Assembly (NCBI GenBank): GCA_019695115.1
Contig: JAIBAP010000061.1
Span: forward strand, 1-33,773
Direction of reading: 5' to 3'
Origin: Caldilineales bacterium
GTDB taxonomy: Bacteria; Chloroflexota; Anaerolineae; J102
DNA length: 33,773 bases
Shown here: positions 25,502 to 30,624 of the stretch, one piece after another
Layout of the letters: each line of letters starts with the position of its first letter
How positions within the stretch are numbered: position 1 is the first letter of the stretch
Program-made: the position numbers and the translations under genes
The notes under the pieces: model-generated
Database searches by the model: none
Seen by the model: only the letters and a program-made list of their open reading frames with translations
What the model was told of the DNA's origin: nothing

Positions 25502-26404
25502 TCAGTTGCTCAGGAAGGCGATCAGGCTGGCGATCTCCTGCGGGCTGAGGTCGAGATCGGGCATTTCGGTGGCAGGGCGAAGGCTTTTGGGATCGGCCAG
25601 CCACTGACGCAGGAACGGTGAGCCGGCCGGGGCGACGTAGTTCGTCAGCACAGGACCGATGTCAACGCTGACAAAACCGCGCGAGGGCGCCTCGGCGTGG
25701 ACATGGCAGGTGACGCAGCCCTTGGCCAGGAACAAGGCCCGGCCTTCGCTGACCTGGCCGGCGCCAGCGCCAGACGGCGCGGCGGAGGCGGTGACGACGG
25801 TCGGAGGCGCGGCCGCCAACACCATCACCAGCGTCAGAGCGCCGGCCGCAGCCCCCAGGCCCAAGAGTCCGCCCAGCGCCCGGCGGCGGCGACCAAGCTG
25901 CAGGGCAGCCAGAAAGAGGGCGGTGGCTGCCAGCGCCAGCAGCAGGGGCAGCCACGGGTTGGCAATCGCAGTGGGCTGCGCGGCTGGCTCAGACACGGCT
26001 GTGGAGCCAGAGACGAGGGTCGAGCTGGCGGCGGCCACCGCCAGAGGCGCCCAACGCACCCACGGATCTTGATTGACGTCGATTCCCCACTCCCAGGCGC
26101 CCGAGCTGGGGAACGTGAGGTCGGCAGTGTAATGCCCGGTAGGGCCTTGCGTTTGGGGTGTGACCTGCAAACGCTGGCCCGTAGCCTCGTTCTGGGCGAC
26201 CACAGAAAGCCCATCCCAAAAGACCGGTGTGCGGCCATGTTGGCGCAGCATGAAGCCGATGGTGAGCGGCTGGCCGGCAGTCGCCGAAGCCGGCAGCGAA
26301 TCGAGCGTGATGACGAACCAGCCGCCTGCCTGGGCCAGCGAGGCGACTGAGAGGGCGAGGGCGAGGACGGTGAGCAAGAACAGACGGCGGAGGGATGTTG
26401 GCAT
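25502..26404 (-). CDS. Membrane-anchored cytochrome c protein with N-terminal YtkA/FixH-like domain
   Basis: The 300-residue protein starts with a signal peptide (RRLFLLTVLALALSVASLAQA). An extracytoplasmic beta-rich domain (about 27-120) follows, resembling YtkA/FixH-like domains (ATAGQPLTIGFMLRQHGRTPV, GHYTADLTFP, GAWEWGIDV). Two membrane helices come next (about 145-205). The C-terminal cytochrome c domain has CVTCH (Cys230, Cys233, His234) and a likely axial Met in ATEMPDL (near 283). It probably carries electrons at the outer face of the membrane. The ATG at 26404 has AAGGAG upstream. Its promoter matches the neighbouring ECF sigma gene, implying shared control. Confidence 0.87.
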   Translation of the reverse strand: MPTSLRRLFLLTVLALALSVASLAQAGGWFVITLDSLPASATAGQPLTIGFMLRQHGRTPVFWDGLSVVAQNEATGQRLQVTPQTQGPTGHYTADLTFPSSGAWEWGIDVNQDPWVRWAPLAVAAASSTLVSGSTAVSEPAAQPTAIANPWLPLLLALAATALFLAALQLGRRRRALGGLLGLGAAAGALTLVMVLAAAPPTVVTASAAPSGAGAGQVSEGRALFLAKGCVTCHVHAEAPSRGFVSVDIGPVLTNYVAPAGSPFLRQWLADPKSLRPATEMPDLDLSPQEIASLIAFLSN

Positions 26405-26468: not shown

Positions 26469-26495
26469 ATACACCGCCGGCCGGGTGTAGGTTCC
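26469..26495 (-). promoter_or_regulatory. ECF-sigma-type promoter before the cytochrome c gene
   Basis: On the minus strand, GGAAC (26495-26491) and GTGTAT (26474-26469) are separated by 16 bases. The same boxes and spacing occur before the sigma-factor gene. The GCGGTGTAT around the -10 is also shared. The start would be near 26462, giving a leader of about 58 bases. Confidence 0.7.
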
Positions 26496-26499
26496 ATCC

Positions 26500-27261
26500 T
26501 CACTCAGCCGCCAGTGATTCCGCTATTTTTCGGGCCTCGGCCAGCGGCAGGTCGGTCTCCAGCCGGTAGGTGACATCCCCCTGCTCCCACAGCAGCACAT
26601 GGCCCTGCACCAGGCGGCGCAGGCTGGGGTCGCCATTGCTGGCTTGCAGCAGGTGGGGGCCGTCGATCCACAGGGCCCAGTGGCTGCCGACTGAGCTTTC
26701 TTCGATCATACGCACATTGCGTTTGTCGAACGAGAAAGCGGCGCCGATTTGTGTCAGGCTCAACCGCACCTGATCAGGCTGGCCTGGCTGCAACCACACG
26801 AGCACGACGGCGGGGCCATCGAGTTCCTGGACGAAGACATGATCGGGCTGGCCCAGGTCGGCGGGATAGGTGGGCAGCAGGATGGGGAAGGGGAGTTGCT
26901 GGCGGGCAGCAGCCAGGGTGGTCTCGCCGGCCAGATCGAGCACAGAAGCCAGGGGCGTGGCCGTGGGCAAGATGGGTGTGGCGATGCTTCTGCCTTCGTC
27001 GGCTGTGGGCGTCGGCTCGGCCAGGAAGATGCGGACGGCGCCCAAACGCAGGAACTCGACCACTGCCGCTCGCACAGGTGGGACGGCCATCAGCCCGGCC
27101 AGCAGCGCCAGCATGATGACCGTCGCCCAGGCCCAACGCGGGCTGCTGCCGGCAGCGGGCCAGGGCGAAGCCGACCGGGAGAGATCAGGGGTGGGGGGAT
27201 AGGTGAAGGCCCGCGCCAGGGTCTGCACCCGCCCTTCCCAATCAGTGGAGGGCCGGATCAC
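26500..27261 (-). CDS. Membrane-anchored probable anti-sigma factor
   Basis: The 253-residue protein has a short N-terminal cytoplasmic part, a single membrane helix (about 45-62, ATVIMLALLAGLMAV) and an extracytoplasmic domain of about 180 residues without a recognised signature. The GTG at 27261 overlaps the end of the ECF sigma gene by 20 bases, the usual layout of sigma/anti-sigma pairs. The N-terminal part is too short for a clear ZAS zinc motif, and no H-x3-C-x2-C is present. The anti-sigma role is therefore inferred from position and topology. The outer domain could sense an envelope signal. Confidence 0.65.
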   Translation of the reverse strand: MIRPSTDWEGRVQTLARAFTYPPTPDLSRSASPWPAAGSSPRWAWATVIMLALLAGLMAVPPVRAAVVEFLRLGAVRIFLAEPTPTADEGRSIATPILPTATPLASVLDLAGETTLAAARQQLPFPILLPTYPADLGQPDHVFVQELDGPAVVLVWLQPGQPDQVRLSLTQIGAAFSFDKRNVRMIEESSVGSHWALWIDGPHLLQASNGDPSLRRLVQGHVLLWEQGDVTYRLETDLPLAEARKIAESLAAE

Positions 27262-27853
27262 GTGTGACCTCCTGCTGAAGGTGAGGGAAATCGGCCTGCA
27301 CGACCGCCCGCAGCCGCTGCAAGGCGCGATGCAGCCGCGATTTCACGGTTCCGGGGGCGATGCCGAGCGCCGCCGCGGTTTCGGCCTCGGTCAGTTCCAG
27401 ATAGTAGCGCATGTAGATGATCTCCTGGTCGGTGCGACCCAGCCGCCGGATCGCCTGCCAGAGGATGGTCGCCTCGTCGTGGGCGACGTGGGCTTCCTGG
27501 TGCATCGCCGCCGGCGGCGTGGCCTGGAAGAGCCGTTGCAGGGCGGCAAAGTAGCGGCCGGCCGAGCGACGCTGGTTGTAGGCCAGGTTGGTGGCGATCT
27601 GAAGCAGCCAGGGGCGCAAGGGCCGCCCGACATCGAAACGGTGCAACGAGCGAAAGGCGCGCAAAAAGGTTTCCTGGGCAATATCCTCGGCGGCGTCGGC
27701 ATCACCGACGATGAGGTAGGCCAGGCGAAAGACCGGGGTCTGGTGCTGGCGAACCAGCGTTTCCCAGGCGATGGCGTCGCCCTGGCGGGCGGCTGTCGCC
27801 AGTTCGGCATCGATCACGCGGCAAGCTCGGTGGGGATGGATGGTGCGTTTCAT
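27242..27853 (-). CDS. ECF-type RNA polymerase sigma factor
   Basis: The 203-residue protein has region 2 (about 25-90: WETLVRQHQTPVFRLAYLIVGDADAAEDIAQETFLRAF, then RPWLLQIATNLAYNQRR). Region 4 (about 135-185) has LTEAETAAALGIAPGTVKSRLHRAL. The absence of regions 1.1 and 3 marks it as ECF (group 4). The ATG at 27853 is directly downstream of an ECF-like promoter, so it probably autoregulates and may be translated from a leaderless mRNA. It overlaps the probable anti-sigma gene and is likely to control the cytochrome c gene, too. Confidence 0.92.
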   Translation of the reverse strand: MKRTIHPHRACRVIDAELATAARQGDAIAWETLVRQHQTPVFRLAYLIVGDADAAEDIAQETFLRAFRSLHRFDVGRPLRPWLLQIATNLAYNQRRSAGRYFAALQRLFQATPPAAMHQEAHVAHDEATILWQAIRRLGRTDQEIIYMRYYLELTEAETAAALGIAPGTVKSRLHRALQRLRAVVQADFPHLQQEVTRDPALH

Positions 27854-27858
27854 ATCAC

Positions 27859-27885
27859 ATACACCGCCGCGGCGCAAACGGTTCC
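27859..27885 (-). promoter_or_regulatory. ECF-sigma-type autoregulatory promoter
   Basis: On the minus strand, GGAAC (27885-27881) and GTGTAT (27864-27859) are separated by 16 bases, identical in spacing to the site at 26469-26495. GGAAC is the classic ECF -35. The -10 ends five bases before the sigma ATG, so the mRNA would be nearly leaderless. Confidence 0.7.
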
Positions 27886-27909: not shown

Positions 27910-27937
27910 TTGCCATCGGCTGCGGTTGCGCTATACT
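27910..27937 (+). promoter_or_regulatory. Sigma-70-like promoter for the ECF transporter operon
   Basis: TTGCCA at 27910-27915 and TATACT at 27932-27937 are separated by 16 bases, divergent from the sigma-factor promoter. Transcription would start near 27944, 42 bases before the ATPase start codon. Confidence 0.5.
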
Positions 27938-27985
27938 GCCGTCGCCCGTTGTCTTGCCATCCTCCCCACTCTCAGTCTGCGCTCG

Positions 27986-29632
27986 ATGACCTCGCCAGCC
28001 CTGGTCGTTCGGAACCTCAGCTATCGCTATCGCACGCGCTCTGCCCCGGCCCTGGAGGAATGCTCGTTCGAGGCGCAGCCGGGCGAGATCATCCTCATTG
28101 CCGGCGCCAGCGGCTGCGGCAAGACGACCCTGATGCGCTGCATCAACGGTCTGATCCCCAACTCGTACAAGGGCGGCGAGTTGAGCGGCTCGGTCGAGGT
28201 CAACGGCCAGCCGGTGGCAGGCAAGACGCTGGCCGAGTTGGCCGGGATGGTGGGGACGGTGCTGCAGGACCCCGAGAAGCAGATCGTGGGCGCGTATGTG
28301 CTCAACGAAGTCGCTTTTGGCCTGGAAAACCTGGGTCTCGACCGCGACGAGATCATCCAGCGGGTGGACGAGACGCTGGCCTGGTTGGGCATCGGCCATC
28401 TGCGCGAGCGCGAGACCTTTGCCCTTTCGGGCGGCGAGAAGCAGAAGGTGGCCCTGGCCGGCGTGCTGGCCATGCGCCCCGACATCCTCCTGCTCGATGA
28501 ACCGCTGGCCAGCCTGGACCCCGCCAGCGCCCTCGACGCCCTCGATGGCATCCGCGCCCTGGCCGACGCCGGCAAAACGATCCTCCTGATCGAACACCGG
28601 GTGGAGGACGTGTTGCGAGTGCGGCCCGACCGGGTGCTGTTTCTCGAAGCCGGGCGACAAAGATACTTCGGCCCGACGGAGGGTTTTCTGGCTATGGCCG
28701 ACCCCACCCAGGTCAAGCTGCCGGCCCAGTTCACCGCCCGCGCCGCCGTCCGTGAGCGGGCCGCTGATCTGGCGATAACGGCGGCGCCGTCTGCCGAGGG
28801 CGCCCCCCTGGTTGTCTTCGACCAGGTCGATTTCTGGTACGAGGCCGGGCGGCCGGTGCTGCACGAGATCAGCACCGACATCCGCGCCGGCGATGTCATC
28901 GCCCTGTTGGGGGCCAACGGCGCCGGCAAGAGCACGCTGGTCAAGCACGCCATCTGTCTCTTGCGCCCGCGTCGCGGCCGGGTGCTCGTCGGCGGCAAGG
29001 ACACCCGCCAGCTGACCGCCGCCCAAACCGCCCGCTCGGTGGGCTATGTCTTCCAAAGCCCCACCCACATGCTGTTTGCACCCACCGTGACCGAGGAACT
29101 GGCCTTCGGGCCTCGCAACATCGGCTTTGCCGAGGCAAGCGTGCGGGCCAGCGTTGCCCATGCCGTCGATGTCACCAATCTGCACGGCTTGGAGCAGCAG
29201 CCGCCGCTTTCCCTGAGCTTCGGGCAACAGCGGCGCGTGGGCATTGCCGCCATCGTGGCCATGCAGTCCACCATCCTGGTCATGGACGAACCGACCGCCG
29301 GGCAGGACTACCGCAACTACACCGGCTTTATGACCGCTATCATGACCATGCGCCAACAGAGTGCGGCCACCGACAACGGGAAGACGCCGTTCGAGGCCAT
29401 CCTGTTTATCACCCATGATCTCGATCTGGCGGTTGGCTATGCCAATCGGGTCTGGCTGTTCAACCAGGGCCGGCTGGCGGCGGATGGCCCGCCCGAACAG
29501 GTGCTGGCCGATGACGCCCTGCTGGAGAAGTGCCGTGTGGTCCCCACCTCGTTGTTGCGCCTCAACCGAGAATTGCTACCGCGAACCGGTCGCTTTCAGC
29601 GCGCTGAGGCGCTGGGCAAGTTTATGACGTGA
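27986..29632 (+). CDS. Energy-coupling factor transporter, fused EcfA-EcfA' ATPase
   Basis: The 548-residue protein joins two ABC ATPase domains, like other fused EcfAA' subunits. Domain 1 has GASGCGKTT at 40-48, a Q-loop VLQDPEKQIVG typical of EcfA, LSGGEKQKVALAG, and LLLDEPLASLD. Domain 2 has GANGAGKST at 309-317, the Q-loop YVFQSPTHMLFAPTV, the variant signature LSFGQQRRVGIA and VMDEPTAGQD. Together with the S and T genes downstream it forms a complete vitamin/cofactor uptake system. The ATG at 27986 is chosen because it begins just before the first domain; an upstream extension from 27926 overlaps the promoter. Confidence 0.92.
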   Translation: MTSPALVVRNLSYRYRTRSAPALEECSFEAQPGEIILIAGASGCGKTTLMRCINGLIPNSYKGGELSGSVEVNGQPVAGKTLAELAGMVGTVLQDPEKQIVGAYVLNEVAFGLENLGLDRDEIIQRVDETLAWLGIGHLRERETFALSGGEKQKVALAGVLAMRPDILLLDEPLASLDPASALDALDGIRALADAGKTILLIEHRVEDVLRVRPDRVLFLEAGRQRYFGPTEGFLAMADPTQVKLPAQFTARAAVRERAADLAITAAPSAEGAPLVVFDQVDFWYEAGRPVLHEISTDIRAGDVIALLGANGAGKSTLVKHAICLLRPRRGRVLVGGKDTRQLTAAQTARSVGYVFQSPTHMLFAPTVTEELAFGPRNIGFAEASVRASVAHAVDVTNLHGLEQQPPLSLSFGQQRRVGIAAIVAMQSTILVMDEPTAGQDYRNYTGFMTAIMTMRQQSAATDNGKTPFEAILFITHDLDLAVGYANRVWLFNQGRLAADGPPEQVLADDALLEKCRVVPTSLLRLNRELLPRTGRFQRAEALGKFMT

Positions 29633-29715
29633 GCAGTCGTTGCGAGGAGGCAATGGCTGTTGGCGATGAATCGTTCCAACTCGTTCTTTTCTCATCCTGA
29701 AGGAGGTTTTCTGCT

Positions 29716-30624
29716 ATGACTACACAAAGTGCGCGTTCCAGTCTGACGCTGACCCGCGTCATCGGCGCCCTTGTCGTGGCCACGGTCGTACTCATCCTGG
29801 CCAATCTGCTGGCCACGAGCGGCGACGAGGCCAACCGGGCCGAGGGCGTCGACTGGATCCTCTACCTGGTGGGCGCAGTGATCACGATGGCCATCTACTT
29901 CTTTTTCGCCGGCAGACCGATCTGGCAGGTGACGACGCGCGAGATCGTTTACATGGCCATCGGCGCTGCCCTGTATGGCGTGCTCTCGTGGGCCACCAAC
30001 ATCGTCCAGCTGCCTTCGGTCAGCCTGGTGTCGCTGCGGCCGGCGGTCGTCCTGCCCGTGTTCTTCGGCTTCGTCTTCGGCCCGGTGGTGGGTTTCTTCA
30101 CCGGCGCCGTGGGCAACATCCTGGGCGATGCCCTCACCGGCTGGGGTGTGTACCCGGTTTGGGACATCGGCAATGGGCTGATGGGCATGATCCCCGGTCT
30201 CATCCTCGCCTTTGCCAACCGTGAGCGCGTCACCCGCAACGTGCTCTATCTCGTCGCCGGTGTGTTGATCGTCTTCACGGCGTTGGCGCTGGCGTTCCCG
30301 GCGGTCGAGCATCCGTGGGCGGGTCAGACGGTGGGGCAGTGGTGGCCGTTGTTGGTCATCTTGCTGGTGCTGGTGGTGGCGGGCTATCTGCTGTTGCGCC
30401 GGCGACCATCGATCGGCGCCAGCATCGTCTGGGGGGCGCTGGGGGTGATCGTGGGCATGGGCTTTGCCAGCATCGCCGATATTTGGGTCAACGGCTACAG
30501 CGTTGCCACGGCCCTGCTGGGTGAGTTCGTCCCGGCAGCGGGGGCCAACCTGTTCATGATCGTCATCCTGATGCCCATCCTGACCGCCGCCTGGGAGGCT
30601 GCCCGCGCCCAAAGCGGTCGCTGA
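29716..30624 (+). CDS. ECF transporter substrate-binding S component
   Basis: This 302-residue membrane protein has about eight hydrophobic helices. Its core (REIVYMAIGAALYGVLSWATN, SLRPAVVLPVFFGFVFGPVVGFFTGAVGN and WDIGNGLMGMIPG) matches the ECF riboflavin-type S-component family. It is longer than classic S components (about 180-200), with extra helices at the end. The substrate is not certain: related proteins handle riboflavin or other vitamins, and no riboswitch is visible upstream. AAGGAGG lies just before the ATG, the strongest ribosome site in the window. It should assemble with the flanking ATPase and T genes. Confidence 0.87.
   Translation: MTTQSARSSLTLTRVIGALVVATVVLILANLLATSGDEANRAEGVDWILYLVGAVITMAIYFFFAGRPIWQVTTREIVYMAIGAALYGVLSWATNIVQLPSVSLVSLRPAVVLPVFFGFVFGPVVGFFTGAVGNILGDALTGWGVYPVWDIGNGLMGMIPGLILAFANRERVTRNVLYLVAGVLIVFTALALAFPAVEHPWAGQTVGQWWPLLVILLVLVVAGYLLLRRRPSIGASIVWGALGVIVGMGFASIADIWVNGYSVATALLGEFVPAAGANLFMIVILMPILTAAWEAARAQSGR

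Follow-up and report, generated by a model that had tools for sequence, protein, structure and literature searches.

Does the ECF sigma factor encoded at this locus transcribe its own gene, and which other genes does it serve? The locus lies in the window, by which we mean the whole stretch of 33,773 nucleotides of DNA from a Caldilineales bacterium that was analysed, and it consists of three genes on the minus strand accompanied by two matching candidate promoter sites, designated P1 and P2. An earlier note had proposed that this sigma factor transcribes itself, a probable anti-sigma gene and a cytochrome c gene. The sites, their spacing, their conservation, their specificity within the genome, the gene synteny, the co-occurrence and the domain content were computed here; from these we infer that the local sigma factor reads both P1 and P2, that the membrane protein encoded next to it is its anti-sigma, and what the signal and the physiology of the module may be. 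The features are as follows.

27881-27885, minus strand: P1 -35 element, GGAAC (with 27880, GGAACC), kept in relatives
27859-27864, minus strand: P1 -10 element, GTGTAT (with 27865, GGTGTAT), kept in relatives
27242-27853, minus strand: gene for an ECF sigma factor of 203 aa, with sigma-70 regions 2 and 4
26500-27261, minus strand: putative membrane anti-sigma gene with a DUF4367-like extracytoplasmic domain, overlapping the sigma gene
26491-26495, minus strand: P2 -35 element, GGAAC, 4 bp past the anti-sigma stop codon
26469-26474, minus strand: P2 -10 element, GTGTAT, 64 bp 5' of the cytochrome c gene start
25502-26404, minus strand: target gene, encoding a signal peptide, a YtkA-like domain and cytochrome c

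With a convergent peptide deformylase gene on one side and a divergent ABC transporter on the other, the three genes form a closed unit. In the transporter region (27926-30624) a divergently oriented ABC ATPase was found together with a sequence matching an ECF-type S component, where ECF stands for energy-coupling factor and shares only its abbreviation with the unrelated ECF sigma factors; a sigma-70-like site on the plus strand (27910-27937) may serve these genes. The sigma protein matches Pfam Sigma70_r2 (1.6e-18), Sigma70_r4_2 (3.5e-15) and the NCBIfam sigma70-ECF superfamily, all above cut-off, and with only sigma2 and sigma4 in about 200 aa it is an ECF sigma-70 factor. Only 5 nt separate its ATG at 27853 from the P1 -10 box, so that the sigma mRNA would have no leader if translation began there; the alternative is the GTG at 27817, the start that aligns with those of relatives.

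On the minus strand P1 reads GGAACCGTTTGCGCCGCGGCGGTGTAT (27885-27859) and P2 reads GGAACCTACACCCGGCCGGCGGTGTAT (26495-26469). Both copies of GGAAC-N16-GTGTAT described earlier are exactly in place, and so are the matching bases beside the boxes, a C after GGAAC and GGC before GGTGTAT (a shared GGCG). These two copies in the window compare with 0.02 expected from dinucleotide-preserving shuffles; no sigma-70-type promoter was seen on the minus strand 5' of the sigma or the cytochrome gene. The whole-genome search that the note had called for was run on the entire assembly of 5.99 Mb. GGAAC-N14-18-GTGTAT has four matches there, and at N16 only P1 and P2 are found, which are also the only perfect copies of GGAACC-N14-GGTGTAT. 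The single match to this longer pattern with one mismatch overlaps coding sequence, and when up to two mismatches are allowed there are 46 matches versus 36 for the reversed control, so that matches of this kind outside P1 and P2 are background. Further targets were considered among the degenerate sites of this genome (L122-L149) and set aside, nearly all of them lying within long coding frames; L132, a site 5' of a lipoprotein gene, is not claimed as a target because it has two mismatches at otherwise invariant bases. The regulon in the window's genome thus appears to be limited to P1 and P2, while relatives add distal targets.

The earlier note had named loss of the motif from relatives that keep the same genes as a result that would refute it, and the proposal withstood this test. 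We assembled 37 non-redundant loci with the same sigma/anti-sigma pair from Chloroflexota (Anaerolineae and allies). A public genome collection supplied 22 loci, and many of the compared genomes are metagenome assemblies. In the first four loci sigma is 53-61% and anti-sigma 37-52% identical to the window. Every pair of 5-mers at the 12 spacings from 10 to 21 was scored in 260 nt around the sigma start of all 37 loci. The top-ranked dyads of this unbiased scan were GGAAC-15-GGTGT (30 of 37 loci) and GGAAC-16-GTGTA (29 of 37), which describe the same site; the best dyad in shuffled DNA reached three loci. GGAAC..GTGTA occurred 5' of the sigma gene at no other spacing between 10 and 21 in any locus, and a control pattern with a spacer one base longer showed no enrichment over its reversed form. 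In P1 and P2 alike, GGAAC and GGTGTA carry about 1.9 bits per base, the preceding C about 1 bit and the following T up to 1 bit, and most of the spacer and flanks is near 0; it is therefore the boxes that have been kept and not the whole region. From this alignment the motif is refined to GGAACC-N14-(C)GGTGTAT; a TTGTA variant was found in families f39 and f43. P1 and P2 are conserved in the relatives and a chance origin is therefore untenable. A signal kept almost letter for letter in distant relatives makes the regulatory circuit readable from the sequence alone.

These properties bear on the nature of the repeat. An invariant spacing would also be produced by a protein dimer, and the repeat might then be a transcription factor binding site and not a bipartite promoter. 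Its halves, however, are related neither as inverted nor as direct repeats, the E. coli sigma E -35 element has GGAAC as its core (GGAACTT, as quoted in PMC3397946), the distance between the boxes fits a -35/-10 pair, and in each case a start codon follows on the same strand. We regard a binding site as extremely improbable and continue with the promoter reading.

Where sequence is available 5' of the sigma gene, almost all orthologous loci have P1 with its exact spacing. Three misses (L042, L049 and L059) are explained by a contig ending short of the sigma gene or by a broken copy, and two loci (L041 and L060) have one-base variants. The site is truly absent from its usual place in two Thermoflexus loci and in L061; in the last of these the motif precedes a ferric-reductase-like gene leading into the sigma gene. 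In Thermoflexus a motif copy lies 1.7-3 kb or more upstream of sigma, 5' of an unrelated gene (L010:1952, L012:511, G118:C19:1745 and G155:C67:17603); in L010 the gene after this copy encodes 244 aa and a peroxiredoxin-like gene follows anti-sigma. About half of the loci have the second site, P2, past the anti-sigma gene, and it is kept in most of those where a YtkA/cytochrome gene comes next. In some of them a short gap takes its place, consistent with co-transcription from P1.

This last arrangement raises the possibility that the cytochrome gene of the window is expressed by read-through from P1 and that P2 is decayed or silent. No terminator-like structure was seen between the module genes, and some relatives keep the gene without P2 (it is missing in L013, L015, L025 and L048 although a YtkA gene follows anti-sigma). 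Against this, the boxes of P2 are conserved to the same degree as those of P1 while spacer and flanks are unrelated; in L007 and L016, where P2 lies one gene further up, its position shifts together with the beginning of the downstream unit; and the distal motif copies of relatives also precede single genes. Read-through alone is accordingly very unlikely, and we take P2 to be a promoter in its own right.

A different uncertainty is which sigma factor uses these promoters. P1 and P2 might be read by a paralogous ECF sigma of the same specificity, the local sigma having other targets. The genome contains 18 sigma region 4 matches over cut-off, some of them other HTH proteins, and another sigma could therefore in principle share the motif. 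The distribution of the module across 396 genomes of the class speaks to this point. Anti-sigma orthologues occur in 40 of the 396 but not in the two sister genomes from the window's own genus, and the module is thus patchy. The 396 genomes contain 75 exact copies of the motif versus 9 of a reversed control, and the motif is present in 27 of the 40 genomes with anti-sigma versus 24 of the 356 without (Fisher p 2e-18, a value overstated in that genomes are not phylogenetically independent). The dyad scan, made on divergent loci, is independent of such genome-count p-values. Some genomes lacking the anti-sigma gene do have one or two motif matches, but many of these fall inside long coding frames. 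The motif thus tracks the sigma/anti-sigma pair over the 396 genomes, and it lies 5' of the same sigma gene in almost all orthologous loci, which is the usual mark of autoregulation. A paralogue is consequently a very improbable reader of P1 and P2, and the comparative data point to an autoregulated promoter of conserved specificity, common to the sigma gene and its targets.

The target gene follows the same distribution: a YtkA-like gene is present in 24 of the 396 genomes, 22 of which carry anti-sigma (p 4e-23, likewise overstated because the genomes are not phylogenetically independent), and it mostly adjoins the anti-sigma gene on the same strand. In L281 and L279, where no anti-sigma gene was detected, a YtkA-cytochrome gene is kept without the motif, beside the same partner families (a ferric-reductase-like protein and an exported GPGLD protein).

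In many relatives the sigma leader contains a further element. Between P1 and the sigma start there is a perfect palindrome of 12-14 nt, CCTCTCCGGAGAGG, with variants that are still palindromic (CCTCTCGCGAGAGG, CCTCTGCAGAGG and CCTCTCGAGAGG); it occurs in L006/L033, L007/L032, L014-L017, L019-L022, L036, L037 and L041. Its right half is the Shine-Dalgarno sequence, 3-6 nt 5' of a GTG or TTG start. Palindromes of at least 10 nt were found in 15 of 31 sigma leaders versus 1.4 in shuffles and in none of 20 P2 leaders, and the window itself has none in its sigma leader. This pattern suggests that the palindrome either seals the translation of sigma mRNA or acts as an operator.

The membrane protein is a putative anti-sigma, an assignment for which synteny, the overlap between its gene and that of sigma, and a single membrane span argue. 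In its predicted structure (mean pLDDT 79) a short N-terminal helix is accompanied by one membrane helix and a beta-rich domain. The roughly 42 residues before the membrane helix contain no Cys and are predicted to form only a helix at 7-18 and a short turn. No anti-sigma Pfam family was matched at E<0.1 by any of 23 putative anti-sigma members, and neither a class I anti-sigma domain (3-4 helices, >50 aa) nor an Hx3Cx2C zinc motif was found; judged by its sequence, the protein would not belong to class I. Domains shorter than 50 aa have been treated as possibly class II (PMC7406223). When the model was compared with VIA-align, four RseB entries scored Z 8.5-8.7 and MucB 7.7, with the next rows at 6.7, while Foldseek gave an E of only about 0.05. 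The overlap with RseB covers 91-96 residues at an rmsd of 2.7-3.0 and runs through the C-terminal domain of RseB/MucB. The predicted sensor domain therefore most resembles this C-terminal domain, which is suggestive of a shared fold, and it probably senses envelope damage. In L039 (G303:C4:1026906-1028210), and also in L015, the extracytoplasmic domain of the anti-sigma product seems to be duplicated (a 454-aa frame with two profile matches).

The earlier note had described the output as a cytochrome c. The target protein has a signal peptide, a YtkA-like domain of Ig fold, two predicted membrane helices and a mono-haem cytochrome c domain, for which Pfam Cytochrom_C is above cut-off; CVTCH at 230-234 and the conserved M281, a candidate axial Met, support this assignment from sequence. 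Among 23 aligned targets, however, the invariant core (AGGW, P38, H56, P99 and GxWxW) is the YtkA-like domain, and cytochrome c (CxxCH and Met) is fused in 19, being absent in L026, L057, L058 and L251. The gene stands under the motif as claimed, and the constant part of its product is the exported YtkA-like domain, with cytochrome c an optional fusion. A cytochrome-first interpretation (SoxX-like, below the NCBIfam cut-off) was abandoned in view of the four relatives that have the YtkA domain alone, and the filamin-like matches of this domain (Z up to 11.7) were taken to indicate only an Ig-type fold. Pfam YtkA (PF13115) is matched by 18 of the 23 targets (best 3.7e-6); the window's protein has no such match passing E 0.1 but aligns throughout with family members, and by sequence match the family can be assigned to the YtkA-like domain.

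In relatives, the distal copies of the motif have start codons roughly 6-50 nt downstream. The genes that follow encode a small exported lipoprotein family without a Pfam match (L183, L185, L232 and L252, and beside the locus in L016), beta-propeller or propeller-like lipoproteins (L186, L187, L192, L224, L247, L249 and L250, and within the module locus in L041 and L060; PD40 was tested in L186 only) and LPG_synthase_TM proteins (L226 and L228). The motif also precedes genes for an exported family with KGG past the signal peptide (L007 and L018, and similarly at L190) and for a ferric-reductase-like membrane protein (L181, L223 and L061), which we take to resemble MsrQ (tested against PF01794 only). 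Nearly all of these proteins are exported or sit in the membrane, as one would expect if the regulon responds to envelope stress.

Taken together, these observations make it very probable that the locus is a cell-envelope stress module run by its ECF sigma factor, with P1 for feedback and P2 for output. An envelope signal would be sensed through anti-sigma, releasing sigma from its membrane partner, and the freed sigma would direct RNA polymerase to GGAACC-N14-GGTGTAT. Transcription of the sigma and anti-sigma genes from P1 would provide positive feedback and, through anti-sigma, shut the system off again, while P2 would serve as a promoter for the exported YtkA-cytochrome c gene alone, so that this output could be tuned separately. 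The original proposal for these three genes is supported by the conserved motif, synteny and co-occurrence, and is corrected in three respects: the YtkA core of the target, the non-class-I character of the putative anti-sigma, and a regulon that in this genome appears to comprise P1 and P2 only but has distal members in relatives.

The locus is a new and well-supported case of a circuit type that is already known. As in E. coli rpoE-rseA-rseB and B. subtilis sigW-rsiW, a sigma gene is followed by the gene of a single-span membrane protein, and one promoter motif with a GGAAC -35 core lies 5' of the sigma gene and its targets. Unlike in those operons, the -10 element here is GGTGTAT, the anti-sigma lacks a recognised class I domain and a YtkA-cytochrome c protein forms the output. 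The E. coli system includes RseB, whose domain type is the one that the anti-sigma model most resembles; there it is a separate protein, whereas here the part resembling its C-terminal domain lies within anti-sigma itself. Tt-RpoE1/Tt-TolB of Thermoanaerobacter tengcongensis likewise pairs an autoregulated ECF sigma with an anti-sigma encoded immediately 3' of it, but its -35 element is tGTTAC in place of GGAAC (PMC3397946). In B. subtilis, YtkA-domain proteins assist CuA assembly of cytochrome oxidase, and CtaK and the C-terminal domain of YcnJ resemble the targets here in being exported, membrane anchored and linked to a c-type cytochrome (PMC13344008). Here, by contrast, most members carry the YtkA domain fused to cytochrome c, and the gene stands under an ECF sigma; any copper-binding residues would be putative, with one invariant His, H56. 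From the B. subtilis precedent, copper or redox handling at the membrane is a reasonable guess, and probably what the output concerns; the module as a whole may have a redox or envelope role. More tentatively, and with considerable doubt, we suggest the full combination of an RseB-like sensor built into anti-sigma on a minimal non-class-I tail, a palindrome control layer in relatives and a YtkA-cytochrome c output for copper or redox repair.

In the library searched we found no description of ECF regulons of Chloroflexota. Strong comparative evidence now connects a promoter specificity with an anti-sigma partner and a family of targets, which makes the circuit testable in a cultured relative, and the link between the ECF sigma and YtkA-cytochrome c offers a handle on what this exported redox protein does.
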